From: Owenia fusiformis
Taxonomy: Eukaryota > Annelida > Polychaeta > Sabellida > Oweniidae
Assembly (NCBI GenBank): GCA_903813345.2
Contig: CAIIXF020000003.1
Span: 4,609,815 to 4,673,814, forward strand
Length of the DNA stretch: 64,000 bases
Direction of reading: 5' to 3'
Below the pieces are notes generated by a model, which saw only the letters and a program-made list of their open reading frames with translations, ran no database searches and had not been told where the DNA came from. A program made the position numbers and the translations under genes. Shown piece after piece: positions 9,821 to 45,102 of this stretch (its first letter is position 1; the number at the start of each line of letters is the position of its first letter).

Positions 9821-12800
9821 TTATTTAAGGATTTTAGAGCAAATAAATTTATTTTGATGTTTCTTACAATATTGCTTGTTGGCCTCCTCGCAGAGTTTAC
9901 CATAAGAGCCGTCATCGATTATATTACTCAGTGCCTTGTTAAGCTTCTTTATTAATGGATTTCCCACCTTCAGCATAAATGCTGGACCTACATGAAATTA
10001 AAGAAAAAATCATATTTTGAGAGTGCATGGGTTTTGTGCGCTCATTATAAATGCTGAGGCTCTAATAGAGAAGAAAATATTTAAAAAGTTTATATTTTAT
10101 GTATTTTATAAATCATGAATCACCTAGTACTAGTTTATAGACTGGGGTTAAAGGGCCTCAACTAGTATATAGACTAGGATTAAAGGGACTCATCTAGTAT
10201 ATAGACTAGGATTAAAGGGACTCAACTAGTATATAGACTAGGATTAAAGGGACTCAACTAGTATATAGACTACGGTAAAAGGGACTTACTTTGTTAATTG
10301 ACAAGAGTTAAATGGACTAAACATGTACATGTACACCCCCAAAATGCAATCTGATTTTCGACACCGTTTCGGTGCCAAACTTCAGTGCCGTTTCGGCACC
10401 AAATGGACTGACTAGTCCGGTAGCAAATTTTGGTGTCGAAAGGTTTCGGTGCTGAAACGGTGCCGGAACAGCGCCGAATTTTTCGATGCCGAAACAGTGC
10501 CGAATTATATTGGCTGTGTATAAAGAGTAGAGTTAAACGTAATCTGCTCGTACTCTAATATGAGTTAAAGGCATCTATCCAGTATATAGAATAAAGTTAA
10601 AGGGACTCACCTCTGTTATTCCAGCTGCAGTCAAAGCTAGAACCAACATGAATGTCATCTGGTGCAACAAACGTGTCCCTGCTCCCCAACATTAAATCTA
10701 TCTAAAAACAAAAAGAACGCAAATGCCCTTTATATAAAATGCAAACCAAACAACTGATTTGAACTCCCCTTGAAGGAAATTTTAGATCATAATACCACAA
10801 AAACATAATATATCTACTTGTTCATTTTCACACTATTGGAGTTAAGCTAGGAGACAAACCTTTTGATCGCGCAATGCAACAACCATATCTTTGTAACTCT
10901 CAAAGAAAACTGAAGTGAAGTCATTTACATCATTTCCAGTTTCTCTAGCCAGACATTGCTTGCTAACAGACCAACCACTGATGAAACCTGCAAACAATAT
11001 ATAGTGATTAAAGGGGCACAAAAGAATAGAAACGAGTTATCTCTCAAAGAAAACTGATGAGAAGTCATTCACATCATTTTCTAGTCTCTCTAGTCAGACA
11101 TTGTTTGCTAACAGACCAACCACTGATGAAACCTGCAGACAATAATATTTAGTGATTAAATGGGCTCCAAAGCATAGAGACAAGTTGAATGATAACTTTT
11201 GTCGCAACATACCATATACAACATAAAGTACACAATGTCATATAAAATACATAATGATTCTGTATGGGATTCAGGATATAGGGATTATCCCATAACAAAT
11301 ATAAAACATCTGATTGAGAGTTTACAAATGCTTGACAGACTGCTCTTACACATTGTACTCATTTATATTACGCTATGTACGCATAGGTTAGCATTTGACA
11401 GTAATTACTGTTGAACTTATATTTCTGCAAAAGTGACCTTCAAATCTAATGATAAAGTGCAAATACAGCACTAGAATATTACTTAGATTTGACTATTACA
11501 TGTAAACATATTTTAGAATTTAATTACTAGTATTACATGCAGTGTTGAACTTAAACTTAGATTAAAGTAACCTTCTAAGCATACAGTATGACTTAGCAAA
11601 AAATATGTAGAACTCATACTTTACTATGGTTGTGTTTTGCCACACCATGTCAAGAAATAAAGTAGGTCATTTTTACATATGTTATGTTATCCATGAGACT
11701 AGGTATGAAGCAGGCATGCCATGGGGCAGTTGAAACAACTCCCTCACAAATACACATTTGAATCTTGATCACAACATTTCAAGCTAGAATTTAGTTGTCT
11801 GAACTTATAAGAAGTTATAAGCGATAAACAAATGTAATAAATGACTTTGCATAAATCTTTTCAACTGAAATAGGTTCTCATGAACAAATTTTGGGATAAA
11901 AATGCATCTTGTTATATTTAAAATCAGAAATAGATTGGCCATATAAATTTTGACTCCAACAGGAAAAAGGAAATAAAAATATCTTACCTATTTTTAATCC
12001 CTTTACATCATCCTCTTTGAATTCGTCATTTCGACTCTTCAGCCAGAAAGCATTGGCATTATCTGCCTTTGCGAATGAAAGTGTGAAGTTGAAACTGTTG
12101 AATCTGCGAGGATAAGGCCAGTAGCCAATACATGCAGAGTAGTAATCATCAAGAAGCCCTAGAACCAAATAAGAAGGGTGAACAATATAATACAGGAAAT
12201 GTAATATCAGGTAGCACTGATAAGGCCAGTAGCCAATACATGCGGAGTAGTAATCATCAAGAAGCCCTTGAACCAAATAAGAAGGGTGAACAATATAATA
12301 CAGGCAGTGTAATATCAGGTAGTACTGATAAGGCCAGTAGCCAATACATGCGGAGTAGTAATCATCAAGAAGCCCTAGAACAAAATAAGAAGGGTGAACA
12401 ATATAATACAGGCAGTGTAATATCAGGTAGTACTGATAAGGCCAGTAGCCAATACATGCGGAGTAGTAATCATCAAGAAATACTAGAACCAAATAAGAAG
12501 GGTGAACAATATAATACAGGCAGTGTAATATCAGCTAGTACTAAATGCAATCAATTGTGGTTGGTTAATGCATGATTCTTTATTCTTTATTCCAAAGTAG
12601 AAATCCATATGTACAAACCTTTTCCAGGGAATTCCACATCTCCTTCAGTTTCCCAACAGTTGGCATAGCGATCCATGACATAGTAACACTTTAAATCAGC
12701 CTCATCGCACACTGAAACATATTGAAATGACGACATAGTAACACTTTAAATCAGCCTCATCGCACACTGAAAAGTATTGAAATTATGACATAGTGACAGT

Positions 12801-15800: not shown

Positions 15801-17696
15801 CCATAAGTTAAAAAATATTTTAACTTACATGCATTCATGAGATCTATATGGAACCCTGTGATACGACCTGTCTCTGGAGAACTGCAATAAAACAAAAGTG
15901 CAATGATAAACTAATACCCGCTATGGCTCAGTGGCAGAGAGAGTCAAGGCTACCAATGTCGCTTGGCCCCGGGTTCGATTCCCGGTTCAGACAAGTTTTT
16001 TTGTGCGTTATGTAATTCTGGGTGTTTGACTGAGTGGTTCACGACTCGTATAAAAGGCTGTGGTGTGTACCTGTATGTCTGTGTACCTGTGCACATAAAA
16101 GAAAACAGGGCTCCTCCAAGGAGGGGTTTCTGGCTCTATCTTCGAGTGTAAAATACGTAAAATACGGAATATACCAATGAGGTATTGCTCGCCAAATATG
16201 GCGGTAACCAAGATATAATAAAATAATAATAAGGTGCAATATACAGGGTGTCCCGAAAGTATGGGGCCCCCCCTAGGCAGACATATACCAGTGTCGTCAT
16301 AGTATGTATCATATATCATTTTAAAGCTCACACAAAGTTACATTGATTCACCAAGTATCATGGTTCAACTCTCAAATGTGAAAAAATTACAGGCATTTGA
16401 AAATTTAGTGTTTGGTCAAAATGAAGTTCAATTTTACACCAAATCACTAGTCAATGTGTCCTTCCGGGCCATTGTAACAGCAGCAATTCTTTTCGGGTCG
16501 GATGGATATTGAGTTGGAAAAAGAGAATGGTGAGGGTAGAAACTCTAAGGAAACTCTTCTAAAGTGCCTTAACAGGTTTTAAGAGGGTTATAAAATTCCA
16601 CACCCCTATTTGAAGGGCTTTTAAGGTCATATCTGAAAATAATTGGTGCTGTTAACATGGCCAAGGGGGACTCATTGACTAGTAATGTGGAGTAAAATTG
16701 GACTTTATTTTGACAAAACACTAACTTTTAAAATGACTGTAACTTTTTCCCACTTGGGAGTTAAACCATGATACTTGGCAAATCAATGTAACTTTGGATA
16801 AGCTTTAAAATGATATATGAGACATACTATGAGGACACTGGAATATGTCTGCCTAGGGGGGGGGGGCCCATACTTTCGGGACGCCCTGTATACAGTATAT
16901 GCACAAGTCACATGTGGAACCCTGTGATATGACCCGACTCTGGAAAATTTAAGTAAAACAATGGAGCAATGTATATTCAAGTGCAATGCTTATGTACACT
17001 GTATATGTTCACGTCAACAGGAGATATTTCTACACACTTTCATAGAAACAATACAGTGTGTTCTTACATGTGTTCATATGGGCCAAAATCATCTCCAACA
17101 CAAAAATAGTAAATAGGTTTTTCTTCATCATCGTCCTCTTCACTTGATTTGGATTCGTGTGATGAGCTATGATCGTGTCCTTCATGGTGATGGTGCACAT
17201 CTCCATAGTAGAAGTGATGGCTACTGCCACTGGGGCGGTCCCTGGGAGAATCTGCCTGCATCTTTCCCTCCCCGGTTTTAAATTTCTCGCCCCACCCCCA
17301 AGCTGTAATGTCAAAGTTAGTATCCATATTATTTATATAAAATGTATATAATATTCACAATCAAAAGATTATATTCCTTGAAATTAAACACTCATAAATA
17401 CAAGCTTCTGTTTAATATTATAATATAAGTCTTAGATCATATATAAGAACTGAGTCTCAGTAATCGAATGCGAGTCAATGTTACATCAAATACAATTTTC
17501 ATTGAAATTATACTTGGGTTATGAAGACATATCCAAGACAACCATTTCAAAAACTTAAGTATTTAGCTTGAAGTTCTATAGGCCTAACAAAACAATTGCT
17601 TCAAAAAGATGAGAAATATAAGAATAATCACAATGATACAGAAACATTCTTACCTGATACAGCACCAATTAACATTAAGATTATGACAGCCTTCAT
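9821..17696 (-). CDS. Gene A: secreted protein with bacterial-type family 3 solute-binding domain, 326 aa
   Basis: Eight exons: 17696-17654, 17302-17068, 15881-15829, 12711-12619, 12158-11988, 10987-10860, 10701-10611, 9987-9821. All introns are GT-AG, phases agree, and the CDS is 981 nt. Residues 1-14 (MKAVIILMLIGAVS) are a signal peptide, cleaved near Ala15-Trp16. Residues 43-63 are His-rich (HH, HHHH, HxH) and 69-75 are all acidic; this linker may bind metal. From about 79 to 320 the chain reads as a type 2 periplasmic-binding fold: FCVGDDFGPYEH, then GRITGFHIDLMNALC (the usual GFDVDL motif), DDYYSACIGYWPYPRR, KADNANAFWL, the second-lobe start VKGLKIGFISGWS, IDLMLGSRD, and the end MLKVGNPLIKKLNKAL. 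It belongs by motif to the SBP_bac_3 family, whose bacterial members bind amino acids for ABC import; similar animal proteins exist in lophotrochozoan annotations. There is no membrane segment, so it is probably extracellular; the ligand is unknown. Many extra cysteines suggest disulphides. Confidence 0.9.
10123..10315 (-). repeat. 35-bp array derived from the gene A exon 7 donor side
   Basis: About five units in intron 7. Read on the coding strand each is close to TTGAGTCCCTTTAATCC then CTATATACTAG. The true intron start after exon 7 (10610 downward) reads GTGAGTCCCTTTAAC then CTATATACTGG, so the repeat is a copy of the first 30 or so intron bases with GTGAGT mutated to GTTGAGT. The array sits about 300 bp from the real donor. 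Confidence 0.8.
10355..10510. repeat. Self-complementary GC-richer island in intron 7
   Basis: Repeated forms of TTTCGGTGCC and its complement GGCACCGAAA occur several times in both orientations within 150 bp, so the segment can fold back on itself. It may be a short foldback transposon remnant; I cannot define its ends. Confidence 0.45.
11044..11142 (-). pseudogene. Extra copy of the 5' part of gene A exon 6
   Basis: In intron 5, about 60-150 bp upstream (transcript sense) of exon 6, the acceptor and first 95 or so bases of exon 6 are repeated: a CAG acceptor followed by GTTTCATCAGTGGTTGGTC. The copy carries base changes and a small indel around the codons for EThrGlyAsn, so it is out of frame if read through. 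It ends where exon 6 sequence gives way to intron. Confidence 0.85.
11160..11980. other. Rest of gene A intron 5
   Basis: AT-rich intronic sequence of about 800 bp between exon 5 and the duplicated exon 6 fragment. I see no array, transposon end or extra exon in it. Confidence 0.5.
12112..12545 (-). repeat. 108-bp array spanning the gene A exon 5 acceptor
   Basis: The true acceptor (AG at 12160-12159) plus the first 46 or so bases of exon 5 are followed upstream by three more copies at exact 108-bp steps (landmark at 12121, 12229, 12337, 12445). Each copy contains a CTAG or CAAG acceptor and the coding segment for LDDYYSACIGYWPY, then intron-like sequence. Because 108 is divisible by three and the unit has no stop in that frame, the reading frame is open through all four copies into the real exon. 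Confidence 0.93.
12668..13870 (-). repeat. 55-bp array spanning the gene A exon 4 acceptor
   Basis: About 21 extra head-to-tail copies of a 55-bp unit lie immediately upstream of exon 4. Each unit holds the acceptor (TTTCAG on the coding strand) and the first 35 or so exon bases starting TGTGCGATGAGGCTG. The unit length is not a multiple of three, so use of another acceptor would generally shift the frame. Copies are 90% or more alike, with linked variants (for example CATCGTAACAC) in blocks. Confidence 0.95.
13900..15195. mobile_element. Non-autonomous TIR element with internal tandem repeats
   Basis: Bounded by ATGTCACCACC at the left and GGTGGTGACAT at the right. Inside are about eight copies of a 130-165 bp unit rich in TTTTTGACCTTGAGAAGGTC, AATCTAAAGTCAGATTTGAA and TCAATTTGAAGCAAGTTG. 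The right end has a GC-rich stretch of ACGCC repeats and a 48-bp tail present twice (15099-15146, 15148-15195), each ending in the hairpin ATGTCACCAC/GTGGTGACAT. Related units recur near 46.3 kb, 47.3 kb and 60.6 kb, so it is a dispersed family. It lies in gene A intron 3. The superfamily is not clear. Confidence 0.75.
15328..15803. mobile_element. 476-bp MITE with TAA target duplication (PIF/Harbinger-like)
   Basis: Ends are inverted repeats of about 27 bp: TGGCCTAGTCACATAGCCCG at the left and its complement at the right. TAA flanks both sides (15325-15327 and 15804-15806), a 3-bp duplication as PIF/Harbinger elements make. The interior is GC-rich with many CGGCCGG motifs and no transposase. 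Its right edge is about 25 bp from the exon 3 donor of gene A. The 110-codon frame inside is not a gene. Confidence 0.85.
15920..16232 (+). mobile_element. tRNA-derived SINE
   Basis: The head has a polymerase III A box (TGGCTCAGTGGC, 15924-15935) and B box (GGTTCGATTCC, 15972-15982) at tRNA-like spacing. A body of about 230 bp and an AATAATAATAA tail follow. It sits in gene A intron 2. The tail runs directly into the TA target of the next element. Confidence 0.8.
16244..16888. mobile_element. 645-bp Tc1/mariner-type MITE
   Basis: Terminal inverted repeats of about 80 bp start CAGGGTGTCCCGAAAGTATG at the left and end CATACTTTCGGGACGCCCTG at the right, both flanked by TA (16242-16243, 16889-16890). 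TA duplication and this end sequence fit Tc1/mariner. There is no transposase. Another fragment lies at 588-668. Confidence 0.88.
16913..16971 (-). pseudogene. Extra copy of gene A exon 3 acceptor and 5' part
   Basis: On the coding strand it reads through an acceptor-like CCAG, a shortened start, and ATCACAGGGTTCCA, matching exon 3 (15881 downward). It carries changes that make it unusable as written. It lies about 1 kb upstream of the true exon 3, and the SINE and the mariner MITE lie between the two copies. Confidence 0.8.
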
Positions 17697-17751
17697 TGTG
17701 GACTCTTTCCAATTGCTAATGTAGATGTAATGTTTAAATGGGGGACATGTT

Positions 17752-17759
17752 CTTTTATA
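17752..17759 (-). promoter_or_regulatory. TATA box of gene A
   Basis: TATAAAAG on the minus strand, about 56 nt upstream of the start codon at 17696. A TSS some 25-30 nt downstream would leave a short 5' leader. This supports the start and a regulated, TATA-type promoter. Confidence 0.65.
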
Positions 17760-17764
17760 CACTA

Positions 17765-18720
17765 ATTGAAAGGGAGTGTCTCATGAATTGTAAAACAAAT
17801 AATTTAGAGGGAAGATTCAAAATTTGACGATGAATATTTGAGGAAAACTGAACCCAACTCAACCAACTGAGAAATCACATATTTCAAACCAATTATGTTT
17901 CAGTATTAAAATATTATGAATTACCGATAAATATTTAATGGAAAGAACGACAGCAATAATGAAAAGTTCATTCTAATGAGGACAGTATAACTGCTTTACT
18001 GTTAAGAGTCAACCCCCCCCCATATGTAACACTGGCGGGTCCAAGGGGCCCATACCCCTCCCCCTTGGGTGGAGTCAGAGAGAAAATTGTGTAGGGCCTC
18101 AATAAGGGGGCCTTTTTGATTTTTGATTACATGGTTTTTTAAGTTCAAATTATCATAACATTTTTTCGCGCAAGCATTTGAAATGTGGGCATCCCTCTTG
18201 TTGGATTCTGGGTCCGCCAGCACGTAATTACAAGATCTCTTTGAAGAATAAATGGATAATTCTTTCATACTTGTTTTTTAATTAATTTGTTTGTTTTCTT
18301 GAATTGCTGATATGGTCCCCAAAGATATATAAGGACAAACTGATTAAAAACAAAACAAAAGTCAGTCTTAAATGTAAACAGCATAAACTAAAACAAGTGA
18401 CCCCATTATTTCTTTAGATTGATAACATATAATTAATATGTATTATAGGTCAATTATATCAAGTCATTAAGTCTCACAGAGTATCACGTTAATGATGTCA
18501 AGAAACTTTGAACTATTTTTTGACTTTTAGAGCTGAGGTGAGGGCAAAGTCAGCCTTTGTTTATGAGACATGGGATTAATCAGCACTGATTTACTCTTTT
18601 CAAAATATAGATTGCGTCTGCACTGAGATTATCCTTTGAAATAGAATGAATATTACATGTAGTTCAATGAAAATTCAGATAACCAATCAGAATTAAAATT
18701 AATCAGAATTACAGAAAATG
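17765..18720. other. Intergenic 5' flank of gene A
   Basis: AT-rich upstream sequence. A segment near 18005-18260 starts with a poly-C run and CCCTTGG-rich sequence, and looks like a fragment of a dispersed repeat, but I cannot define its ends. No exon recognised. Confidence 0.4.
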
Positions 18721-19065
18721 TTATGCCACCATAAGTAGTTGTAAGTTGTTTCTAAAAAATTCATGAAATGCCAATTGACATGTTACGTCCCCATAAGTAA
18801 ATGGCATTTGGTTCATATATAAACTCCTATGAAATGTCAATAGACATATTATGCCCCCATAAGTAAATGGCATTTGGTTCATATAAAAACTCCCATGAAA
18901 TGTCAATTGACATGTTATGCCCACATAAGTAGATGGCATTGGCTCATATAAAAACTCCTATGAAATGTCAATAGACATATTATGCCCCCATAAGTAAATG
19001 GCATTTGGTTCATATACAAACTCCCATGAAACGTCAATTGGCATGTTATGCCCCCATAAGAAGTT
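18721..19065. repeat. 62-bp tandem array
   Basis: About five and a half copies of a unit containing ATGCCCCCATAAGTAAATGG, CATTTGGTTCATATA and ATGAAATGTCAATTGACAT. No splice site or exon seen in it. Confidence 0.92.
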
Positions 19066-19910: not shown

Positions 19911-22273
19911 TGTAGTTGAGTACTTATTTACATGACTTGTAGTTGAGTACTTGTATACATGACCTGTAGTTGAGTACTTGTATACATGACCTGTAGTTGA
20001 GTACATGTATACATGACATGTAGTTGAGTACATGTATACATGACCTGTAGTTGAATACTTGTATACATGACCTGTAGTTGAGTACATGTATACATGACAT
20101 GTAGTTGAGTACATGTATACATGACCTGTAGTTGAGTACATGTATACATGACATGTAGCTGAGTACATGTATACATGACATGTCGTTGAGTACATGTATA
20201 CATGACTTGTAGTTGAGTACTTGTATACATCACCTGTAGTTGAGTACATGTATACATGACTTGTAGTTAAGTACATGTATACATCACCTGTAGTTGAGTA
20301 CATATATACATGACCTGTAGTTGAGTACATGTATATATGACCTGTAGTTGAGTACATGTAGACATGACTTGTAATTAAGTACATGTATACATGACCTGTA
20401 GTTGAGTACATGTATACATGACCTGTAGTTGAGGACATGTATATATGACCTGTAGTTGAGTACATGAATATATGACCTGTAGTTGAGTACATGTAGACAT
20501 GACTTGTAGTTAAGTACTTGTATACATGACCTGTTGTTGAGTACATGTATTTATGACTTGTAGTTGAGTACATGTATACATGACCTGTAGTTGAGTACAT
20601 GTATACATGACCTGTAGTGGAGTACTTGTATACATGACCTGTAGTTGAGTACATGTATACATGACATGTAGTTGAGTACATGTATACATGACCTGTAGTT
20701 GAGTACTTGTATACATGACCTATAGTTGAGTACATGTATACATGACCTGTAGTTGAGTACATGTATACATGACCTGTAGTTGAGTACATGTATACATGAC
20801 ATGTAGCTGAGTACATGTATACATGACATGTAGTTGAGTACATGTACACATGACTTGTAGTTGAGTACTTGTATACATGACCTATAGTTGAGTACATGTA
20901 TACATGACCTGTAGTTGAGTACATGTATACATGACTTGTAGTTGAGTACATGTATACATGACCTGTAGTTGAGTACATATATACATGACCTGTAGTTGAG
21001 TACATGTATATATGACCTGTAGTTGAGTACATGTAGACATGACTTGTAGTTAAGTACTTGTATACATGACCTGTAGTTGAGTACATGTATTTATGACCTG
21101 TAGTTGAGTACATGTATACATGACCTGTAGTTGAGTACATGTATACATGACCTGTAGTGGAGTACTTGTATACATGACCTGTAGTTGAGTACATGTATAC
21201 ATGACATGTATTTGAGTACATGTATACATGACATGTAGCTGAGTACATGTACACATGACATGTAGTTGAGTACATGTATACATGACTTGTAGTTGAGTAC
21301 CTGTATACATGACCTATAGTTGAGTACATGTATACATGACCTGTAGTTGAGTACATGTATACATGACTTGTAGTTGAGTACATGTATATATGACCTGTAG
21401 TTGAGTACATGTAGACATGACTTGTAGTTAAGTACATGTATACATGACCTGTAGTTGAGTACATGTATACATGACCTGTAGTTGAGTACATGTAGACATG
21501 ACTTGTAGTTAAGTACATGTATACATGACCTGTAGTTGAGTACATGTATACATGACCTGTAGTTGAGTACATGTATATATGACCTGTAGTTAAGTACATG
21601 TATACATGACCTGCAGTTGAGTACATGTATACATGACCTGTAGTTGAGTACATGTATATATGACCTGTAGTTGAGTACATGTATACATGACCTGTAGTTG
21701 AGTACTTGTATACATGACCTGTAGTTGAGTACATGTATACATGACCTGTAGTTGAGTACATGTAGACATGACTTGTAGTCAAGTACATGTATACATGACC
21801 TGTAGTTGAGTACATGTATACATGACCTGTAGTTGAGTACATGTATGTATGACCTGTAGTTGAGTACATGTATACATGACCTGTAGTTGAGTACTTGTAT
21901 ACATGACCTGAAGTTGAGTACATGTATACATGACCTGCAGTTGAGTACATGTATACATGATTTGTAGTTAAGTACATGCATACATGACCTGTAGTTGAGT
22001 ACATGTATACATGACCTGTAGTTGAGTACATGTATATATGACCTGTAGTTGAGTACATGTATACATGACCTGTAGTTGAGTATTTGTATACATGACCTAT
22101 AGTTGAGTGCATGTATACATGACCTGTAGTTGAGTACATGTATACATGACTTTTAGTTAAGTACATGTATACATGACCTGTAGTTGAGTACATGTATACA
22201 AGACCTGTAGTTGAGTACATGTATATATGACCTGTAGTTGAGTACATGTATACATGACCTGTAGTTGAGTACA
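19911..22273. repeat. 2.4-kb minisatellite, 27-bp unit
   Basis: Close to 88 copies of TAGTTGAGTACATGTATACA plus TGACCTG. The unit is partly palindromic (CATGTATACATG). Variants (TTGTATAC, TATATATG, TAGACATG, GACATGTAG) recur in the same order in blocks of several hundred bases, showing segmental duplication inside the array. All three minus-strand frames are open because the unit has no stop on that strand and 27 is divisible by three. Confidence 0.97.
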
Positions 22274-22490
22274 GTAGTGTTAACAATATATCGTCTTAAA
22301 TCTAAGATACTCATGTTATTGAAAATATTATATACAAAAATTGGATATAAAAGCAAATAGTAAATGTAAGCATTTGAAGTCTTAGTGTCTGTATGATGAA
22401 TGTTTTATATGATATACAAAAAAATTATTATGTATAAGTGAAAATATTCTAGGTCAATACTTCATTCTTCTCTTTATTATTTTACAGATA

Positions 22491-22526
22491 CTTTTATAGA
22501 TATGGATCTGAAGTTGCTAGGCACCA
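22491..22526 (+). pseudogene. Inverted fragment of gene B exon 13 acceptor
   Basis: The plus strand here reads TTTTATAGATATGGATCTGA then AGTTGCTAGGCACCA. Gene B exon 13 has the same junction on the minus strand (TTTTATAG, ATATGGATCTGAAG). It is thus an inverted copy of an acceptor and about 27 exon bases, about 1 kb beyond the end of gene B. Confidence 0.75.
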
Positions 22527-22529
22527 CTT

Positions 22530-23340: not shown

Positions 23341-23345
23341 GGCAC

Positions 23346-23351
23346 TTTATT
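23346..23351 (-). promoter_or_regulatory. Polyadenylation signal of gene B
   Basis: AATAAA on the minus strand about 100 nt past the stop at 23448. Consistent with the end of the gene model. Confidence 0.6.
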
Positions 23352-23447
23352 CAATTAAATTGATTATTATCAAAATAACCATGGTCTGTTTATATAACTC
23401 TGAGTTGGAATGAGGCCAGGTACGGACATGTTTTTCATTACTTCATT

Positions 23448-29400: not shown

Positions 29401-32400
29401 TACAGAGACTCTGCAATAAAGATTTATATGTAATATCAATAATATGAGTTACAGGGGGTCAACAATATTAACTTGGCCACCAGTCTGATCTGACACATTG
29501 CCAAATTCAACCATTTTACAGTCAGTTCCTTTTATGCTTATCACAGATACAGAGACTCTGCAATAAAGATTTATATGTAATATGAGTTTCAGGGGGTCAA
29601 CAATGTTAACTTGGCCACCAGTCTGATCTGACACATTGCCAAATTCAACCATTTTACAGTCAGTTCCTTTTATGCTTATCACAGATACAGAGACTCCGCA
29701 ATAAACATTTGTATGTAATATGACTTTCAGGGGATTGACAATATTAACTTGGCCTCCAGTCTGATCTGACACATTGCCAAATTCAACCATTTTACAGTCA
29801 GTTCCTTTGATGCTTATCACAGATACAGAGACTCTGCAATAAAGATTTATATGTAATATCAATAATATGAGTTACAGGGGGTCAACACTATTAACTTGGC
29901 CACCAGTCTGATCTGACACATTGCCAAATTCAACCATTTACAGTCAGTTCCTTTTATGCTTATCACAGATACAGAGACTCTGCAATAAAGATTTATATGT
30001 AATATGAGTTTCAGGGGGTCGACAATATTAACTTGGCCACCAGTCAGATCTGACACATTGCCCAATTCAACCATTTTACAGTCAGTTCCTTTGATGCTTA
30101 TCACAGATACAGAGACTCCGCAATAAACATTTGTATGTAATATGAGCTTTAAAGGGTCACCAATGTTAACTTGGCCACCAGTCTGATCTGACACATTGCC
30201 AAATTCAACCATTTTACAGTCAGTTCCTTTTATGCTTATCACAGATACAGAGACTCCGCAATAAACATTTGTATGTAATATGAGCTTTAAAGGGTCGACA
30301 ATGTTAACTTGGCCACCAGTCTGATCTGACACATTGCCAAATTCAACCATTTTACAGTCAGTTCCTTTTATGCTTATCACAGATACAGAGACTCCGCAAT
30401 AAAGATTAAATCTTGATTCCAAATGTTACGCCATGCAAATTAATGATTCTATTCAACCAAAAATAAATGCTTACCTTTTGAGTAGAGCATGTTGGGCAAC
30501 TTCCCCATTGAATAACTGTGATATTCTATGATAGTGTAGAACTACCTTAAGGGTAATACAGAATGCTTGCAACTTCCCCGTTGAATAACTGTGATATTCT
30601 ATGATAGTGCAGAACTACCTTAAGGGTAATACAGAATGCTTGCAACTTCCCCGTTGAATAACTGTGATATTCTATGATAGTGTAGAACTACCTTAAGAGT
30701 AATACAGAATGCTTGCAACTTCCCCGTTGAATAACTGTGATATTCTATGATAGTGCAGAACTACCTTAAGAGTAATACAGAATGCTTGCAACTTCCCCGT
30801 TGAATAACTGTGATATTCTATGATAGTGCAGAACTACCTTAAGGGTAATACAGAATGCTTGCCCTTTGAGTAGAGCATGTTGGGCAACTTCCCCATTGAA
30901 TAACTGTGATATTCTATGATAGTGCAGAACTACCTTAAGAGGTACAACAAAATGCATACCCATTGGGTAGAGCATGTTGGGCAACTTCCCCATTGAATAA
31001 CTGTGATATTATATGATAGTGTAGAATTACCTTAAGGGTAATACAGAATGCTTACCCTTTGAGTAGAGCATGTTAGGCAACTTCCCCATTAAATAACTGT
31101 GATATTCTATGATAGTTCAGAACTACCTTAAGAGGTATAAAAAAATGCATACTCAATGGGTAGAGCATGTTGGGCAACTTCCCCATTGAATAACTGTGAT
31201 ATTCTTTGATAGTAAAAGAACTTCCTTAAGGGTAATAAAGAATGCTTACCCTTTTAGTAGAGCATGTTGGGCAACTTCCCTATTGAATAACTGTGATATT
31301 CTATGATAGTGCAGAACAACCTTAAGGGTAATAAAGAATGCTTACCCTTTGAGTAGAGCATGTTTGGCAACTTCCCCATTGAATAACTGTGATATTCTAT
31401 GATAGTGCAGAACTACCTTAAGGGTAATACAGAATGCTTACCCTTTTAGTAGAGCATGTTGGGCAACTTCCCCATTAAACAACTGTGATATTCTATGATA
31501 GTTCAGAACTACCTTAAGGGTAATACAGAATGCTTACCCTTTTAGTAGAGCATGTTGGGCAACTTCCCAATTGAATAACTGTGATATTCTATGATAGTTC
31601 AGAACTACCTTAAGAGGTATAACAAAATGCATACCCAATGGGTAGAGCATGTTGGGCAACTTCCCAATTGAATAACTGTGATATTCTATGATAGTGCAGA
31701 ACTACCTTAAGGGTAATACAGAATGTTTACCTTTTGAGTAGAGCATGTTGGGCATCTTCCCCATTGAATAACTGTGATATTCTATGATAGTGCAGAACTA
31801 CCTTAAGGGCAATAAAGAATGCTTACCCTTTTAGTAGAGCATGTTGGGCAACTTCCCTATTGAATAACTGTGATATTCTATGATAGTGCAGAACAACCTT
31901 AAGGGTAATAAAGAATGCTTACCCTTTGAGTAGAGCATGTTGGGCAACTTCCCTGTTGAATAACTGTGATATTCTATGATAGTGCAGAACTACCTTAAGG
32001 GTAATAAAGAATGCTTACCCTTTAAGTAGAGCATGTTGGGCAACTTCCCAATTGAATAACTGTGATATTGTATGATAGTTCAGAACTACCTTAAGGGTAA
32101 TACAGAATGCTTACCCTTTTAGTAGAGCATGTTGGGCAACTTCCCAATTGAATAACTGTGATATTTTATGATAGTTCAGAACTACCTTAAGAGGTATAAC
32201 AAAATGCATACCCAATGGGTAGAGCATGTTGGGCAACTTCCCCATTGAATAACTGTGATATTCTTTGATAGTAAAAGAACTACCTTAAGGGTAATAAAGA
32301 ATGCTTACCCTTTTAGTAGAGCATGTTGGGCAACTTCCCCATTGAATAACTGTGATATTCTATGATAGTGCAGAACAACCTTAAGGGTAATAAAGAATGC

Positions 32401-35400
32401 TTATCATTTGAGTAGAGCATGTTGGGCAACTTCCCTATTGAATAACTGTGATATTATATGATAGTGTAGAATTACCTTAAGGATAATACAGAATGCTTAC
32501 CCTTTGAGTAGAGCATGTTAGGCAACTTCCCCATTAAATAACTGTGATATTCTATGATAGTGCAGAACTACCTTAAGGGTAATACAGAATGCTTACCCTT
32601 TGAGTAGAGCATGTTGGGCAACTTCCCTGATGAATAACTGTGATATTCTATGATAGTGCAGAACTACCTTAAGGATAATACAGAATGCTTACCCTTTGAG
32701 TAAAGCATGTTGGGCAACTTCTCCATAGAATAACTGTGCAGTTTCAAGCAACTCATCAGTTTCAGAATTTGCCTGGAGAGAACCTAAACCAACATTAGCT
32801 TTGCCATCTGTGCAGATTATGACCTTTGACCCTGGACATTGACCTGCCATGGAAACAGCCAATAGGAGGCCAGGACCAAGCGCTGTGGCTCCACCTTCCT
32901 CTAGTCTGAAATTATCAAATAAAAAAAGCCTAAGTTAGAAGTTAACATTTTCCACATCATAAAATAATGACTTAAATAGGTTTAAACCTGTGTAAGTGGA
33001 ACACCTCTGATGTCCTCATAATAGTGTTATACTTGGTAAATGGGAGATGTTCCATTTAAAGGGACTTGTTTAAACCAGAACAACGGCAACGCCAAAGCGT
33101 AGCGAATCCCATCGAACAGAAATGGCTGGCATTTTTACAAACGAAATATATTGCAAACTTTAAAATGGTGGCCAATTTTCATAATGGCTGCCTTCTACCA
33201 AAAGTGTCATTAGACAGTGTGCCATGCTTATAGTATTCACATACCAAATATGAACAAAATCGCTCCACTACTTTTCAACTTACAGCAAAAATCGTAAAAT
33301 AACGAGTAAAGGCCGAGTAAAATATGTTTAAATGGCGGCCATTTTTCAAAATGGCCACCTTCTACCAAAAGTGTCATTAGACAGTGTATCATGCTTATAG
33401 TATCCACATATCAAATATGAAAAAAATAGCTCCACCACTTTTCGAGTTATAGTTAAATACGTTAAAATGGTGGCCATTTTTCACCTTCTACCAAAAGTGT
33501 CATTAGACAGTGTGCCATGCTTATATTATTCACATAACAAATATGAAAAAATTTGCTCCACTACTTTTCGAGTTATAGTAAAATACGTTAAAATGGCGGC
33601 CATTTTTCAAAATGGCCACTTTCTACCAAAAGTATCATTAGACAGTGTGCCATGCTTATAGTATTCACAAACCAAATATGAACAAAATCGCTCCACTACT
33701 TTTTGAGTTAAAGTAAAATATGTTAAAATGGCGGCCATTTTTCAAAATGGCCGCCATTTTGAGAAATGGCCGCCTCCTACCAAAAATGTCATTAGACAGT
33801 GAGCCATGCTTATAGTATTCACATACCAAATATGAACAAAATCGCTCAACTACTTCTTGAGTTATAGCAAAAAACGTAAAATAACGAGTAAAGGCCTCCA
33901 TTTTTCAAGATGGCTGCCATGTGCTTCTTTAATATCTACATTTCTAGCTTTATCAATGTCCTTTATAATTTTCCACATTTAAAACATATTGCTATTACAG
34001 TTTTACATATGCACCTAAATTACTGTAAAATCGGCACTAAAATGGCCGCCATATTTTAATGAGCGGCCATTTTGAAAATCGGCTTTCGAGCAGAACTTCT
34101 ACACCCATAGGGTATATGTGTACAAAATATGAACAAAATCAGGCCAATGGTATTTGAGTTATTGCCCGGACGGACGTACGTACGTACGTACGTACGGACG
34201 GACGGACGGACGGACGGAGGCGTTCCCTATATCCCTCCGAACTTCGTTCGATGGGATAATTAAGAGATATGTAACTTGACTTTTAAAAGTAGTTCACATA
34301 ATAATAGAGGTGTTCCACTTACAGAGGTGATTCACGCACACTTTATTGTACTGCAAACCCTTTCCTTTAAGGAATATTTGAAACATCAAATAAATGAATA
34401 CTCACTGATAGATCTTATCGGAGAGAATGTGTTTGGAGTCTTTGATTGGCTGAGGGAGGGGGGCTTCAGCTCCAATTTTGATGAGTTCTTCTTTGTTACT
34501 GAGTTTATCACCAGCTATTGTAACAGGCTCATTAGTGCCATCTCCGATGACACACACCTTCAAGCACAAGTGTTGATAAGTTATTTAAGTATTGATAGGT
34601 TATTCAAGTGTTGATTGGATAGTAAAGTGTTGATGAGTAGTTCAAGTATTGATTGGTTATCTCACTGTTGGTAATTTAATTGTTGAATGGTTATTTAATT
34701 GTTGATAGATTATTTAGGTGTTGATTGCTTATTTAATATTTGAATGGATATTTAAGTTTTGATAGATTATTTAAGTGTTGATAGGTTATTCAAGTGTTAA
34801 TTGGATAATTAATTGTTGATAGATTATTTAAGTGTTGATTGCTTATTTAAGCATTGATTGTTTATTTACCTCACTATCAAATGTCACTAAGGCTGCTCTT
34901 CTTGTTGGGAATTCTTTCATCATGTCATCTAGTTGATGTCCAACTGCTGCTTGAACACCCTGTAGTCTAGAGACATACGTAACATTTCTTCTCTCCCCTG
35001 AAATATAATAATTTTATCTAATCTGCTGCCTGGACACCCTGTAGTCTGAAGACATATGTAACATTTCTTCACTCTCCTGAAAATTATGAACAATTTTAAT
35101 GTGCTACTTCTTCCCTCCCCTTAAAATTTTGATTTATTTCATTATTTATGATCCTCATAAAAGCCCATGGTTCCTTACCTGGTAAATGTTGATCTTCTCG
35201 CATTTCATTAAAAGACTGCATTCTGTCCAACCGTCTACGTTCTGTTCCCCGTAAGTTGAATCTCCCTGGGACCTAAAACAATTAAACCTCAATTAATTAA
35301 GTAGCTATCATTTTTTATGTGCTAACCAGGGACCTTTATTATTATGCGCTTACTCTGTTGATATACACTAACTTCTGTTGTTCCACATTAACCTTTGTTG

Positions 35401-38400
35401 CTACACACTAACTTCTGTTGTTCTACACTTACCTCTGTTGTTTCACACTAACCTCTGTTGCTACACACTAACCTTTGTTGCCCTACACTAACTTCTGTTG
35501 TTCCACACTAACCTCTGTTGCTACACACAAACCTTTGTTGTTCTACACTCACCTCTGCTGCTATACACCAGCCTCTGTTGTTCTAGACTAACCTCTGCTT
35601 CTATAAACTAACCTCTGTTGTTCTACACTCACCTCTGTTGCTACACACAAACCTCTGTTGTTCTACACTCACCTCTGTTGCTATACACCAGCCTCTGTTG
35701 TTCTACACTAACCTCTGCTTCAATTCTATAAACTAACCTCTGTTGTTCCACACTAACCTTCTGTTGTTCCACACTAACCTCTGTTGTTCTACACTAACCT
35801 TCTGTTGTTCTATACTAACCTCTGTTGTTCCACACTAACCTCTGTTGTTCCACACTAACCTCTGTTGTTCCACACTAACCTCTGTTGTTCTACACTAACC
35901 TTCTGTTGTTCTATACTAACCTTCTGTTGTTCCACACAAACCTCTGTTGTTCCACACTAACCTCTGTTGTTCTACACTAACCTTCTGTTGTTCTATACTA
36001 ACCTTCTGTTGTTCTATACTATCCTCTGTTATTCCACACTAACCTCTGTCGCTACACACATACCTCTGTTGTTCTACACTCACCTCTGTTGCTATACACC
36101 AGCCTCTGTTGTTCTACACTAACCTCTGCTTCTATAAACTAACCTCTGCTTCTATAAACTAACCTCTGTTGTTCTACACTAACCTCTGTTGCTACACACA
36201 AAGCTCTGTTGTTCCACACTAACCTCTGTCGCTACACACAAACCTCTGTTGTTCTACACTCACCTCTGTTGCTATACACCAGCCTCTGTTGTTCTACACT
36301 AACCTCTGCTTCTATAAACTAACCTCTGTTGTTCTACACTAACCTCTGTTGTTACACACTAACCTCTGTTGTTTCACATTAGCCTCTGTTGTTCCACACT
36401 AACCTCTGTTGTTCTACACTAACCTCTGTTGTTCTACACTAACCTTCTGTTGTTCTATACTAACCTCTGTTGTTCCACACTAACCTCTGTTGTTCCACAC
36501 TAACCTCTGTTGTTCCACACTAACCTCTGTTGTTCCACACTAACCTCTGTTGTTCTACACTAACCTTCTGTTGTTCTATACTAACCTCTGTTGTTCCACA
36601 CTAACCTTCTGTTGTTCCACACTAACCTCTGTTGTTCTATACTAACCTTCTGTTGTTCTATACTAACCTCTGTTGTTCCACACTAACCTCTGTTGTTCCA
36701 CACTAACCTCTGTTGTTCCACACTAACCTCTATTGTTCCACACTAACCTCTGTTGTTCCACACTAACCTCTGTTGTTACACACTAACCTCTGTTGTTTCA
36801 CACTAACCTCTGTTGTTCCACACTAACCTCTGTTGTTCTACACTAACCTTCTGTTGTTCTATACTAACCTCTGTTGTTCCACACTAACCTTCTGTTGTTC
36901 CACACTAACCTCTGTTGTTCTATACTAACCTTCTGTTGTTCTACACTAACCTCTGTTGTTCCACACTAACCTCTGTTGTTCTACACTAACCTCTGTTGTT
37001 ACACACTAACCTCTGTTGTTTCACACTAACCTCTGTTGTTCCACACTAACCTCTGTTGTTCTACACTAACCTTCTGTTGTTCTATACTAACCTCTGTTGT
37101 TCCACACTAACCTCTGTTGTTCCACACTAACCTCTGTTGTTCCACACTAACCTCTGTCGCTACACACAAACCTCTGTTGTTCTACACTCACCTCTGTTGC
37201 TATACACCAGCCTCTGTTGTTCTACACTAACCTCTGCTTCTATAAACTAACCTCTGTTGTTCTACACTAACCTCTGTTGTTACACACTAACCTCTGTTGT
37301 TTCACACTAACCTCTGTTGTTCCACACTAACCTCTGTTGTTCTACACTAACCTTCTGTTGTTCTATACTAACCTCTGTTGTTCCACACTAACCTCTGTTG
37401 TTCCACACTAACCTCTGTTGTTCCACACTAACCTCTGTTGTTCTACACTAACCTTCTGTTGTTCTATACTAACCTCTGTTGTTCCACACTAACCTCTGTT
37501 GTTCCACACTAACCTCTGTTGTTCCACACTAACCTTTGTTGTTCCACACTAACCTCTGTTGTTCTACACTAACCTTCTGTTGTTCTATACTAACCTCTGT
37601 TGTTCCACACTAACCTCTGTTGTTCCACACTAACCTCTGTTGTTCCACACTAACCTCTGTTGTTCCACACTAACCTCTGTTGTTCTACACTAACCTTCTG
37701 TTGTTCTATACTAACCTCTGTTGTTCCACACTAACCTCTGTTGTTCCACACTAACCTCTGTTGTTCCACACTAACCTTTGTTGTTCCACACTAACCTCTG
37801 TTGTTCTACACTAACCTTCTGTTGTTCTATACTAACCTCTGTTGTTCCACACTAACCTCTGTTGTTCCACACTAACCTCTGTTGTTCCACACTAACCTTT
37901 GTTGTTCCACACTAACCTCTGTTGTTCTACACTAACCTTCTGTTGTTCTATACTAACCTCTGTTGTTCCACATTAACCTCTGTTGTTCCACACTAACCTC
38001 TGTTGTTCCACACTAACCTCTGTTGTTCTACACTAACCTTCTGTTGTTCTATACTAACCTCTGTTGTTATGCACATACTGCCAGACGTATCCACACAGAA
38101 TACTACCAGAGACTCATCTGTCCCAGACAAACCAGATCCTCTCGTAGCAGGTGCGGGCTGAATCATATATGTCACGTCATTGGTTAATGGGATTTCCTCA
38201 TCCATGATGTCGACAATATTGGCTTTGTTACAGAATTCACATTTCCACTCCTAATCATAAGAAATATATAAATTAGACATGTACATATTGTATAACTGTA
38301 GGTTGAAGAATCATACATTTGTAGGCCTTGAATCATCATAGTCTCAGTCCTAACCATTAGACAGGTGTACATGTACCATTGACACACCAAAATTGTCTTC

Positions 38401-41400
38401 ATCCATGATAAAATCATAGATTGATGAAAGTGGTCAAGGTTTGAGAACAGAACAAATCTTAGAAAACAACTCGAATCTGCGTAACAATGTTTTCAAGAAA
38501 TGGATTCTGAAGAAATGCATTTTGGGAAATATTTTACCTGCTTATAGGGAAACACATAATTATATTATGTTCCCCTACAAAATGCATTTGGGAAATATTT
38601 TTACCTGCTTATGGGGAAACCCTTAATTTTATAATGTTCCCCTACAAAATTGTTTTTAACACTGCAAGGTAACACACTAGATCCCACTGATTGGAAATAC
38701 AATTTTGAATACAATTTTGCAATTTTCACAATTACTCAACCTGTATAACATAAGAAATGTTACCTTTTCATCTGAGTTCTCTCTATTGTTAAGCTTAGAG
38801 ATATGAGATAGTAAGGCCCCACAGGAGCAATACATTAACCTTTATAACATTTATATTTATAAGAAATGTTACCTTTTCATCTGAGTTCTCTCTATTGTTA
38901 AGCTAAGAGATATGAGATAGTAAGGCCCCACAGGAGCAATACATTAACCTTTATAACATTTATATTTATAAGAAATGTTACCTTTTCATCTGAGTTCTCT
39001 CTATTGTTAAGCTTAGAGATATGAGATAGTAGGGCCCCGCAGGAGCAATACGTGGCATCCCCAGTGTGCATATTGCTAGGTTTTACCAACGTATCAAACT
39101 TGACTTGAACAACATTGGTATCAGCTCTGCGGTATTTCTTGGCATATTCTTTAGTGGGCTTCTCTATTAAAAGCAAAAACGAGATAGTCAACTTGATTTA
39201 TTGACTGTACATATGATTAAAATATTGAGTAGAACCAGACATGTTTAATTGTATGTGAAGACTCTTGCAATCTTAACTAGAAAAACAGCAACTCCACGGA
39301 AATCCCACCAAACAAAAGATATTTTGATTATTAGTGGCCATTTTGAAAATTCCTTCTTGAACAGAGCTCGTTTGTCACAAGGCATCAACATATAAAATGT
39401 AAACCATATCCCTCAATTTGCATCAAAGATTAGATAACATTCCTTTTTTTAAGAAAAATGGCAGCCATTTTGAAATTCCCTCCAACAGGTAAACCGTTAA
39501 CATTTGTTGTGTTATGAATTAAAAAGTCATACAACAACATAAATCACAAAAACTGCATGTTTACCTTCAGAGTTAGATGATGCAGATCTCCAATGATTGG
39601 TTGGTTTTCTTTTGTATTTCTTTGGGGGATTATCATAGACTGCAACAGCTGCATCACTAGGTGTGGGGTTATCATACATAGGATCATTAGGAACTGCATC
39701 ATTGCCAACAGAATCAGTAGTAGCATTATCATATGTAGCAGAGGATGTAGCTCCTACATTTATAAAATAAACACAATTCATCATATAGACTGCAAGGGGT
39801 TATCATACATAGGATCATTAGGAACTGCATCATTGCCAACAGAATCAGTAGTAGCATTATCATATGTAGCAGAGGATGTAGCTCCTACATTTATAAAATA
39901 AACACAATTCATCATATAGACTGCAAGGGGTTATCATACATAGGATCATTTGGTATTACATCATTGCCAACAGAATCAGTAGTAGCATTATCATATGTAG
40001 CAGAGGATGTAGCTCCTACATTTATAAAATAAACACAATTTATCATATAGACTGCAAGGGGTTATCATATATAGGATCATTTGGTATTACATCATTGCCA
40101 ACAGAATCAGTAGTAGCATTATCATATGTAGCAGAGGATGTAGCTCCTACATTTATAAAATAAACACAATTCATCATATAGACTGCAAGGGGTTATCATA
40201 CATAGGACCATTTGGTATTGCATCATTGCCAACAGCATCAGTAGTAGCATTATCATATATAGCAGAGGATGTAGCTTCTACATTTATAAAATAAACACAA
40301 TTTATCATATAGACTGCAAGGGGTTATCATATATAGGATCATTTGGTATTACATCATTGCCAACAGAATCAGTAGTAGCATTGTCATATGTAGCAGAGGA
40401 TGTAACTCCTACATTTATAAAATGAACACAATTTATACCCTGATAAATACCAGTATTATTGTAGACAACCTACTGGTTCAAAATATTTGAGAATTTTCCA
40501 ACAAAACAATTATAGTCTTCAATAATCATATCAGAAAAATTCAACCTGGGGCCTCAGTCGTAACAGCAGTACATCTACATTGCCAAATACAAATTACAGT
40601 CAACAAGTGATTCATAAAATATATTAATATTGTAAGAACCGCTGATAGAAAGATGCTTGTACAGGTCAGCTTCCTTAGCTCAAAGGACAACTGAAATAGT
40701 AATTTAAACCTAAAGGAACCGATTTTATTTAATAATGAATATATTTAGACATGTCATCTAACCAGTTATGTGGCAACTGTTTCATTTTACTACATGTGGT
40801 AGCTGTTAAATATATATAAGCAATATTTAAATGTTTTGTGATGCTGTTGGCCCCAATGTGACTTTTCACTTGCCCCCACATGGCCCAACTGAATCTTATT
40901 ATCATAATTCCAATATGTTTTGTTATTTGTTTACACAACAATCGTCACATCGTGATTACCAAGAAATCAATTAATATGACGTCACTGATCACATGGGGCC
41001 AATCTGGCTGATCAGTTTATTTTATAATACTGTTGCTAGACTCTTAACGGTAATTTATCATTTATTTTATTATGGTTAACGCTAGAACTCTACATTGGGC
41101 TTACAATGCTGAGAACCGCATTTTTATAGTTTCAAGTTGAGAAAACCTATTTCAGCTGTGCTTTAAGCTTAGTTGGCTGGAGTTGATAGAGTAGCAGACT
41201 TTGAGTCTAAGATTCTCACACAGCACTGCAGTATTTAGCAGCACTTCTGCAGACTTTCTTTTGTGTCCGAGTCTGACTTGTTACACTTTGTTTAGACATG
41301 AGTCATTCCTCTCGAGTCTTTGCAATATTTTTATTCAATTAAGTCAATTAAGATTTTATGTGAATTACTGACAACATGCAAATTATGCAATAATATTAGA

Positions 41401-44400
41401 AACTATAATTCTATTCTAACTCACACTTAAGAAACATAACATTTACTAGCATGTGGCTCTGCGGCTGCGTGTTGCAGAAAAACCGAGTGTATTATTTGTA
41501 CAATAATGTTATCGTATGTACATGCTGGTTGCCAAAATGTGGCTCTGCGGCTGCGTCGCCGCTGGAAAATATACAAAAATGTTAATAATGGACAATTGAT
41601 TAGCTTACTCGATAATGTAGTAAAAACAAATCTCATTATCAAAATTAAAAAATTTCCGACCACCTGTAAAACCTTTTCTATCTTTAGCATCACACACTCA
41701 TTAATGCCCATTATTATTCTGTTGAGAACATGATGCTAAAAATCTTTGAAATCCTCAACAATTGAGGTTAAAGGAAAAAGGTTTGTCCGAAAAATTTTCA
41801 TTATATTTTAAAGACATTTACTTAGTTTATCTCGCCGCTTAAAGCCGAAGTGATCTTATTCACGAATACATACACCGTTCACCCAGTAATACTGCATTCA
41901 CAATTACCGTTCTATTTTCATAACGTTAAACGACCAAATAGAAATCATTTTCTTGCTAATTCGTACTACGTGACTCAAACGCAATAAAATACATTTCTAT
42001 TCTAACTCACACTTAAGAAACATAACATTTACTAGCATGTGGCTCTGCGGCTGCGTGAAGTGTTAAAGTAAGCGAAAATTATATTGATTATTAAGCACAG
42101 ACATTTACCTAAACTGTTGAGTAAGATTCTTAAAATACAAAAATCTTAAAATACAGGTTTTATAATTATAATCCTAAATTCTTTGAAACACTTAATCCTT
42201 TTTTACAACGTGTGCTGGATAAAACCATCTTTAACAGTCTCCTATCTGAAATGCCTTTCTTTGCGGCCATTTGCGGGGTCTTAAATATTGCGTTCTAAAC
42301 AACGTACCATGTCACCACATGACTTAAATGCCTTTACAATAAATTATCTGCACCTTGTGTAGCTTATAGCTTTATCACTAAACTTTAACACATATGATTT
42401 TGTGATATAAAATTGCTCTAAAAACGAATTTTCATTGCTTATGTTTGCTTCTTTTAAATCATCTTATATTATAAAGTTACTGGACAAAAATCTGAGCATG
42501 TTGCTACAATGACGCACTTGCTACCTTCCTATATACTGTTTTTAAATATCTTATATTGATACAAATATTAGTGTCATAAAACAACAGTCTGAATTTCTAA
42601 TATGACAAATATCATCAAATCTGAGAAAACCTTGCTAAACCAAGAGCTATGATAAATGTAAACACAAATTTTAAACAAATCTGAATTAACATGTGATCTG
42701 ATAAAAAACTGTATTATTATGTTGTAAATGTGTGTTTATTAGAAGTCGGTTTCTCTAGTGTTCGTTAGGCTGATTCCACTACTGTCTAATGTCAATGATT
42801 TTCAAAAATCATGTCTTAGCTGATAAAATACATACTTCGGGGCAATTGTTTACCCACGTTGACCGTCTGTCGAAAGCACTGCTGTATGACCCTATTGTGC
42901 TTGTGGCTTTGCTGCCTAAATCACACCCGGAAGCTTCTCTTTAAGCTGTCTTAAATCTGGATGCTCAAGTTGTCGTTTTTCATTGAGTGATTTGGTAGCC
43001 ACTGAAAACCAGTATCTGTACTTTTCAAACATATATACTCAATCTCATTTTATTACAAAGACAACAAAACATGCATAGGCCAAATACAATATATGCCATT
43101 TAACAATGCGCCATCCAGATATCTGCTATGTTAGCTCTTTCTATAATTCCGCAGCCGTAATAAATCCCCTTTTTTTGTTGAACCATCGATGAGCTTCTTT
43201 GTCTGCTTCATTTTCCCCATCATTGTTTGTGCGGTCATCTTGCCTGAAACTTTCACTGACTGATTGGTATCTATTTATCTACTTAAAAGATTATAGATTA
43301 CATAAAATTATCGCTTATATTCATTGAATAAGATTATTCAACTTACAGATAATGATATGATAATATAGGTTTCTTTGTATTTGTTATATTTATTTGTAAC
43401 CTTCATAAATTAGCTTTTGATATCCTGCCAAAGTATCACAACCAGCCCCACTCTGGTCTTCTTAAATGATTACTTCAATTTTAATCTGACAAAAGTTCCT
43501 TACCCTTTTTCTAAACTATGCATGCCTCATACAAATGGCCGTTTGTTCTGCAAATGTATGGTCCGCTTTCTCGTCAATTCCTTTGTTGTCTATGTACTGT
43601 TGTTTGTGCCCATTTTTCTTCCAAATTATGTTGTTTTTTCTTTGAATTGATAGAAAGTTTTTCTGTTTAGAGTGATTATTCTTAGCTTCATTTTATTTTC
43701 CGTTTGTTGGGATTTGTTTCCGAGAATTCCTTCAGTAGGCTTGTGCCTGCATGGCCGTATTATTTTCAAGGTGACGATTCTGAGTTGGTAGTAACTAACG
43801 TCCGTTTATCTCGCCGCTTAAAGCCGAAGTGATCTTATTCACGAATACATACACCGATCACCCAGTAATACTGCATTCACAATTACCGTTCTATTTTCAT
43901 AACGTTAAACGACCAAATAGAAATCATTTTCTTGCTAATTCGTACTACGTGACTCAAACGCAATAAAATACAATTTCACACATGGAAACGATTGCAAAAC
44001 TTAGTAAAAAAATCTTTTACCTTTAGATGATCTGAAAAGTTTTCCAAAGATGCCTTTACGAGATTTGACAGGTGGAGTAGTACTAGTAGCAGGGGAGGAT
44101 TGGGCCTTACCAAGCACTCTTGTGTACACTGCATCATCATTGTCTGAGTCATCACTATCACTACAAATACAGTATTATAAAAACATGTGATTCCTCATGT
44201 GTATCTGAAAATCATATACTAGGGTTCTTTTTTAACATGCCTTTTGCATAACATGTCCCTTGATAGAACCTCCACTAGTCTACTACAGTACTTGATCAAA
44301 TGCTATTGCAGGCCTACTAACTGCCCCGCAATAAAAATTTGTCACGCATTTGCTGAAGAAATTACCCTGCGCACAGAGTCTAGTTATAAACTACCCTCTG

Positions 44401-45102: not shown

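Follow-up and report, generated by a model that had tools for sequence, protein, structure and literature searches.

Introns of two neighbouring genes in the analyzed stretch of the Owenia fusiformis genome (64,000 nucleotides, hereafter the window) contain tandem copies of the ends of their own exons. This raises the question whether repeat arrays arise preferentially at splice junctions and, if so, what brings them there. Other sequences of the genome agree with this species: two syt1 primers printed in PMC8111721, the reverse one taken without its presumed adapter, each match once, at sites separated by 32 kb on the same strand of contig C11, and the haemoglobin-linker family PF16915, an annelid family, has three matches; the elav1 forward primer, in contrast, lacks an exact match, for which an intron or a polymorphism may account. 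Gene A (positions 9821-17696, minus strand) was modelled with 8 exons encoding 326 aa, and gene B (23448-45102, minus strand) with 16 exons encoding 794 aa. Gene C (50128-55702, plus strand; 4 exons modelled, 397 aa) served for comparison. In all three models the exons join at GT-AG borders, and the frame is open from ATG to stop. The product of gene A matches the Pfam profile PF00497 (solute-binding protein family 3) with E 7.5e-9, and that of gene B matches PF04811 (Sec23/Sec24-trunk) with E 1.1e-6; the match of the latter to the VWA profile PF13519 scores 26.9 bits, just below the cut-off of 27. Gene C encodes a VWA protein according to PF00092. In the predicted models of genes A and B, the intact frames are obtained by joining the exons at their exon-proximal splice sites.

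The arrays are 'mirage' minisatellites, that is, tandem units composed of an exon edge, its splice site, and the adjoining intron sequence. A self-BLAST search with the 100 bases surrounding every junction (50 in genes A, B, and C) revealed spanning same-strand copies at 12 of the 44 junctions of genes A and B, or at 13 if the donor of A exon 7, a weak copy at 76% identity, is included; none was found at the 6 junctions of gene C. The affected junctions are nine acceptors (A exons 3, 4, 5, and 6; B exons 3, 7, 10, 13, and 15) and three donors (B exons 4, 5, and 9), and 11 of the 22 introns of genes A and B are affected. These junctions, together with the extra copy at A exon 7, are the ones listed in a preliminary description of the locus, which also correctly gave at least 11 affected introns, unit lengths of 20-138 bp, and the lack of junction arrays in gene C. 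Nine of the 12 junctions carry arrays of approximately 3 to 134 copies, and the other three (A exons 3 and 6, B exon 7) have single extra copies.

All features of genes A and B described here are on the minus strand. In gene A, the acceptor of exon 4 has an array at 12675-13864, with approximately 22 copies of a 55-bp unit that consists of 37 bp of exon and 18 bp of intron, and the acceptor of exon 5 has four copies of a 108-bp unit at 12111-12542. The acceptor junction of exon 3 has one extra copy 1 kb upstream within the intron (16912-16971; 80% identical), and the acceptor junction of exon 6 also has one (11083-11185; 86% identical). The 32-bp array in intron 7 (10129-10322) is 76-80% identical to the exon 7 donor region, mostly to its intron side. 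The four exon 5 copies share one open frame of 218 codons (11881-12534), and thus the use of an upstream acceptor would add 36-residue repeats.

In gene B, arrays are present at the acceptors of exon 3 (39665-40433; 131-bp unit, 5.9 copies), exon 10 (29022-30407; 138-bp unit, 10 copies), exon 13 (26304-27565; 108-bp unit, approximately 12 copies), and exon 15 (24087-25283; 99-bp unit, 12 copies), and at the donors of exon 4 (38750-39051; 109-bp unit, 2.8 copies), exon 5 (35353-38068), and exon 9 (30496-32738; 96-bp unit, approximately 23 copies). The exon 5 unit is only 20 bp long, 10 bp of exon and 10 bp of intron, and its approximately 134 copies occupy 97% of intron 5. In the exon 9 array, the copies farthest out are a 73-bp variant lacking the junction. 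The donor array and the acceptor array of intron 9 have different units and are located nearly back to back. Own-junction arrays fill 97-98% of introns 5 and 9 and constitute 48.8% of the intron sequence of gene B. The single extra copy of the exon 7 acceptor junction (35027-35098) is 85% identical.

Other arrays in the same introns do not include a junction. A 19-bp array (34568-34868) nearly fills B intron 7 (34558-34869, 312 bp), starting 1 base inside the donor and stopping approximately 10 bases before exon 8, so that neither junction is spanned. All remaining junction-free arrays had been attributed to transposons. This does not hold for the array at 38513-38650, located in the same B intron as the exon 4 array, which by eye appears to be plain intron. 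Several further repeats were observed in the window. B intron 2 contains direct repeats of approximately 150 bp around approximately 2 kb (41830-43965), by eye resembling a terminal-repeat element. Past the 3' end of gene A, approximately 82 copies of a 95-bp unit extend over 7.7 kb (776-8503) and are followed by a 28-bp array (8516-8730), and approximately 87 copies of a 27-bp unit lie between genes A and B (19911-22273). An inverted copy of the B exon 13 acceptor with the start of the exon is found outside the gene on the opposite strand (22443-22526; 84 bases, 74%, with a core of 33 of 35 bases).

The simplest explanation is chance: arrays are born uniformly, and exon-dense genes catch some of them at junctions. 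The preliminary description considered chance placement unlikely on the grounds that exons make up less than a tenth of the gene length. In fact, they account for 12.5% of gene A and 11.0% of gene B, and for 17 and 20%, respectively, after collapsing each array to one unit. A 100-bp unit placed in gene B with its arrays collapsed has a chance of approximately 0.25 to contain a junction, and hence the argument from exon size was too strong. The conclusion itself is retained on other grounds. In our null model, each array was collapsed to one unit and placed randomly in the same gene, never wholly inside an exon. Among the 19 arrays of genes A, B, and C, nine span a junction vs. 3.17 expected (P 0.0009), and with five arrays labelled by eye as transposons removed, nine of 14 vs. 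2.41 expected (P 4e-5). A weaker, point-wise comparison yielded a same-gene copy at 13 of the 50 junctions vs. 85 of 653 intron points (P 0.014), most of the copy-bearing intron points being, by eye, transposons or the junction copies themselves.

The excess is also observed in other genes of the same genome. The sample comprised stretches around Pfam exon matches of CCT chaperonins, myosin heads, and, later, adaptins, each family having been picked before its repeats were seen; the Sec1 family was excluded because it had too few exon matches. The exon matches placed were 52 of the 60 listed for CCT, 69 of 92 for myosin, and 35 of 38 for adaptin, some clusters having been omitted for length or sparseness. 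An automated test with the ends of Pfam exon matches as the only landmarks covered 156 exon matches in 39 loci; locus L008, which has no exon match, lies outside it. In this test, 16 of 94 arrays extend across an exon edge vs. 5.71 expected (P 6.5e-5), and for periods of at least 25 the numbers are 13 of 44 vs. 4.63 (P 2e-4). The strength of the effect differs between families: nine of 42 vs. 2.74 for CCT (P 7e-4), four of 18 vs. 1.32 for adaptin (P 0.028), and three of 34 vs. 1.65 for myosin (P 0.22). Two junction arrays were found in five P450 genes (2/18 vs. 0.78, P 0.18).

A fuller exon annotation of 29 of the loci, from CCT and myosin genes, combined cross-comparison with reading by eye. 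With it, 15 of 41 arrays with periods of at least 25 are on junctions vs. 4.50 expected (P 2.5e-6; P 0.0086 if the expectation is doubled for missed exons). Ten arrays were read by eye for this annotation, and five of them span a junction: L019 at 3731 and L027 at 5802, also found by cross-comparison, and L019 at 2037 and 6131 and L020 at 3285, found by eye only. A large CCT array extending across L008 and L007 entered this count twice, with one hit and one miss. When automated junctions alone replace the by-eye annotation, the count is 10 of 76 vs. 3.50 (P 0.0014). For adaptins, the automated junction caller gives three of 18 vs. 1.09 (P 0.08); it misses the array in L033, where no donor was called and which was counted with the exon-match ends. 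Individual genes may be strongly affected: one CCT gene has a 105-bp donor unit in approximately 49 copies, and one myosin gene has three separate junction arrays.

Thus, junction arrays occur in several unrelated families, at both donors and acceptors, more often than random placement allows, and each has its own unit. The excess over chance supposed in the preliminary description is seen both in the window and in the independent genes. Since the counts are approximately three times the expectation in both, we consider chance quite improbable.

An assembly artefact, in which repeats near exons are falsely expanded, would find an argument in a two-copy duplication of 30 bp in L004, whose copies are identical. 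However, the copies within the nine window arrays mutually agree at only 87-98%, and the genome matches of the B exon 9 and exon 10 units are 86-97% identical; a misplaced read would not give such divergence. Moreover, the junction arrays are spread over nine contigs, and for comparable arrays in lancelets RT-PCR data are described in the available text of PMC3087553. False expansion is therefore a very improbable cause.

Transposon-like sequence, recognized by eye in some introns of genes A and B, could suggest introner-like mobile introns or transposon units inserted at junctions. However, a search of the whole genome (498 Mb) with the B exon 9 and exon 10 units, which may skip very common words, returned 24 and 10 matches, respectively, all from the unit's own array, and thus no dispersal. 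In addition, each unit includes the coding edge of its own exon. We regard such an origin as extremely improbable. For the two units searched, the earlier assertion that each array arose independently at its own junction is supported, in that their arrays appear local.

The position and structure of the arrays provide further constraints. In the CCT and myosin loci, array units cover 5.3% of intron bases within 10 bp of a junction, 4.2% at 10-25 bp, and 3.1% at 25-50 bp, followed by 0.8% at 50-100 bp, 1.1-1.6% at 100-800 bp, and 3.0% beyond 800 bp; much of the last share we take to be transposon-borne. Pooling with the window gives 7.2, 5.7, 3.9, 0.7, 1.3-2.2, and 2.8%. Relative to junctions, the 47 arrays that do not span one are distributed uniformly (mean percentile 0.48, KS P 0.82), and hence there is no general crowding of repeats near exons. 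One array of this kind, with seven copies of a 136-bp unit (L012, 813-1765), stops 4 bases before a CCT exon and does not include the junction. Unit anatomy was scored in 24 junction arrays, a set to which the adaptin, P450, and two short-unit arrays were not added. Both boundary types are affected, with 12 donors and 12 acceptors. The unit is 20-154 bp long in 23 arrays and 260 bp in one, and the exon contributes a mean of 0.61 of the unit, with a non-uniform distribution (KS P 0.011) and units skewed into the exon.

One explanation of this profile is that the junction itself is a mutational target, with breaks on both sides of it and repair that duplicates the segment between them. The target might be a nucleosome edge, a co-transcriptional splicing complex, or the end of an R-loop; repair of breaks at R-loops was also a candidate in the preliminary description. 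Such targeting would agree with the sharp enrichment at junctions and with the indifference of non-spanning arrays to junction distance. On the other hand, donors are affected as often as acceptors (12 arrays each) despite their different sequence and chemistry, and the unit is displaced toward the exon rather than centred on the junction. We take junction-specific breakage seriously as a possible, although doubtful, alternative.

The explanation that we find best, with a confidence slightly short of even, combines exon-biased small tandem duplication, a splicing filter, and minisatellite growth. Exons would be frequent sites of small tandem duplications of 20-260 bp, whose most plausible origin is a staggered break, formed by two nearby nicks, that is filled in and rejoined. 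Selection would purge duplications that lie wholly within an exon. A duplication across an exon edge would do no harm provided that the spliceosome keeps to the exon-proximal site, since the extra copy is then spliced out. The surviving arrays would then grow by ordinary minisatellite turnover, each intron becoming longer as its own ends are multiplied. On this view, what looks like a preference for splice sites would be a duplication bias toward exons, seen after splicing has acted as a filter. The skew of units into the exon is what exon-biased birth predicts, and this skew together with the trough at 50-100 bp fits births over exons filtered by selection. With donors and acceptors affected symmetrically, a cause linked to only one type of splice site is disfavoured. 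Roughly estimated from the density profile, births over exons would have to be about six times as frequent as in introns.

Findings in other systems bear on exon-biased duplication. The available text of PMC8355091 attributes small duplications to the filling in of 3' overhangs where DNA is broken, with nearby nicks as a possible source of the breaks. The Pol alpha-primase fill-in reported there produces local, homology-independent duplications of up to approximately 100 bp and is a plausible first step. The duplications covered by that text come from induced breaks and tumours and are not tied to splice junctions, and Owenia units longer than 100 bp exceed what is called small there. In human cells, PMC6925131 gives odds ratios of 1.65-3.14 for single-strand breaks in exons and 1.16-1.27 in introns; against an exon bias, SNP-associated breaks are depleted from exons in the same map. 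Other observations also speak against the model. The enrichment is uneven, stronger in CCT and adaptin than in myosin and P450, and the share of units beyond 800 bp in CCT and myosin is as high as at 25-50 bp. The skew of units into the exon was obtained from 24 arrays, at a P of 0.01. If exon-biased duplication is correct, arrays are to be expected inside untranslated exons.

Since the exon-proximal site gives an intact protein in genes A and B, the spliceosome would, judging by the sequence, have to bypass up to approximately 134 copies there. The splice signals of these copies bear on yet another explanation, proposed in the preliminary description, namely, selection for spare or decoy splice sites, either as a safeguard in case the splice site mutates or for regulation. 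GT or AG is kept in approximately 92% of 343 extra copies, and the dinucleotide is more identical than the other positions in 16 of the 20 arrays showing a difference. However, this excess is not significant (Wilcoxon P 0.053); the identities of the dinucleotide and of the other positions are 0.953 vs. 0.898 when weighted by copies and 0.945 vs. 0.939 when unweighted. AG is lost in four of the eight scored extra copies of the B exon 10 array, and in one array of L004 the dinucleotide is kept in none of three copies. Furthermore, splicing at one of the spare sites, donor or acceptor, would put intron sequence into mRNA. Unit lengths show no frame preference, nine of the 24 being multiples of 3, that is, near one third; this disagrees with spare sites and led us to reject a use of the units in frame or at the protein level. 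With the signal lost from half or all of the scored copies in some arrays, spare-site selection is weakly disfavoured; we consider it unlikely, and a less likely cause than junction-specific breakage.

Germ-line methylation was considered as a requirement for junction arrays and dropped. In 35 genes, all 14 with junction arrays had an exon CpG o/e of at most 0.46, and 14 of 29 genes vs. 0 of six at 0.50 or above were affected, with the threshold set after looking at the data. Rank tests of CpG o/e in this set of genes gave no significant result (P 0.39 and 0.83). The five P450 genes served as a prospective test of the methylation idea, and one of them (L044), with a coding CpG o/e of 0.83, has a donor array, which shows that junction arrays do not require methylation.

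The preliminary description knew of no described counterpart, but this structure has been named in amphioxus, and the original mirage paper is reportedly that of Canestro in 2002. In the available texts of PMC3087553 and PMC3902484, mirages are described in Adh3, the globins BflGb6 and BflGb9, troponin C, and PGBD5. As in Owenia, tandem repeats extend there across exon-intron boundaries at both 5' and 3' borders, and many, although not all, copies keep the splice signals. The units are 10-72 bp in Adh3 and 150-160 bp in the globins, similar to the range seen here. Splicing is reported there to be undisturbed, in keeping with the proposed splicing filter, and length or somatic instability is also reported. 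Unlike the lancelet cases, the arrays described here are from an annelid, occur in several unrelated families, reach approximately 134 copies and 97-98% of an intron, and were tested against a null model; they are known from the sequence of one assembly.

Boundary repeats are known in human paralogues as well. The available text of PMC2812944 describes variable repeats in segmental duplications, with 53 modifications inside exons and 27 at the boundaries of exons and introns, which we count in favour of exon-biased duplication. The boundary minisatellites lengthen introns there too, but they belong to young primate paralogues, with units of approximately 30 bp, four copies on average, and often alternative splicing, whereas the Owenia arrays are much longer and affect conserved genes too. 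Novel introns of Drosophila, as presented in PMC2891723, likewise involve tandem duplication of splice signals, at proto-splice sites; in that case duplication in an exon creates a new intron, whereas in Owenia the copies pile up in existing introns. A non-exhaustive literature search yielded no report of junction-spanning arrays in an annelid. Thus, the kind of array is already known from lancelet and human, and what is new is the distant phylum, the several unrelated conserved families, the longer arrays, the null test, and the anatomy.

With these data, what was an oddity of a few lancelet genes becomes open to testing in a very distantly related animal that is maintained in the laboratory, and a route is provided to ask what breaks germ-line DNA at exons and how introns lengthen. 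Tentatively, and with confidence well below even, we suggest that a general animal process duplicates stretches of exons at several times the intron rate and that splicing hides the edge-straddling products, so that introns grow from their own ends in annelids, lancelets, and perhaps other animals. If so, the history of exon-directed breakage in the germ line could be read from junction arrays, which would also be a main contributor to the length of introns in such genomes (in gene B, 49% of the intron sequence). A spliceosome choosing among dozens of near-identical sites would argue for strong exon definition.

A repeated structure of another type was observed upstream of one myosin gene, where one and the same stretch of the myosin head (approximately positions 18-84) is matched twelve times within 8 kb (G000:C9:37986009-37994334); this is perhaps a large group of mutually exclusive exons.
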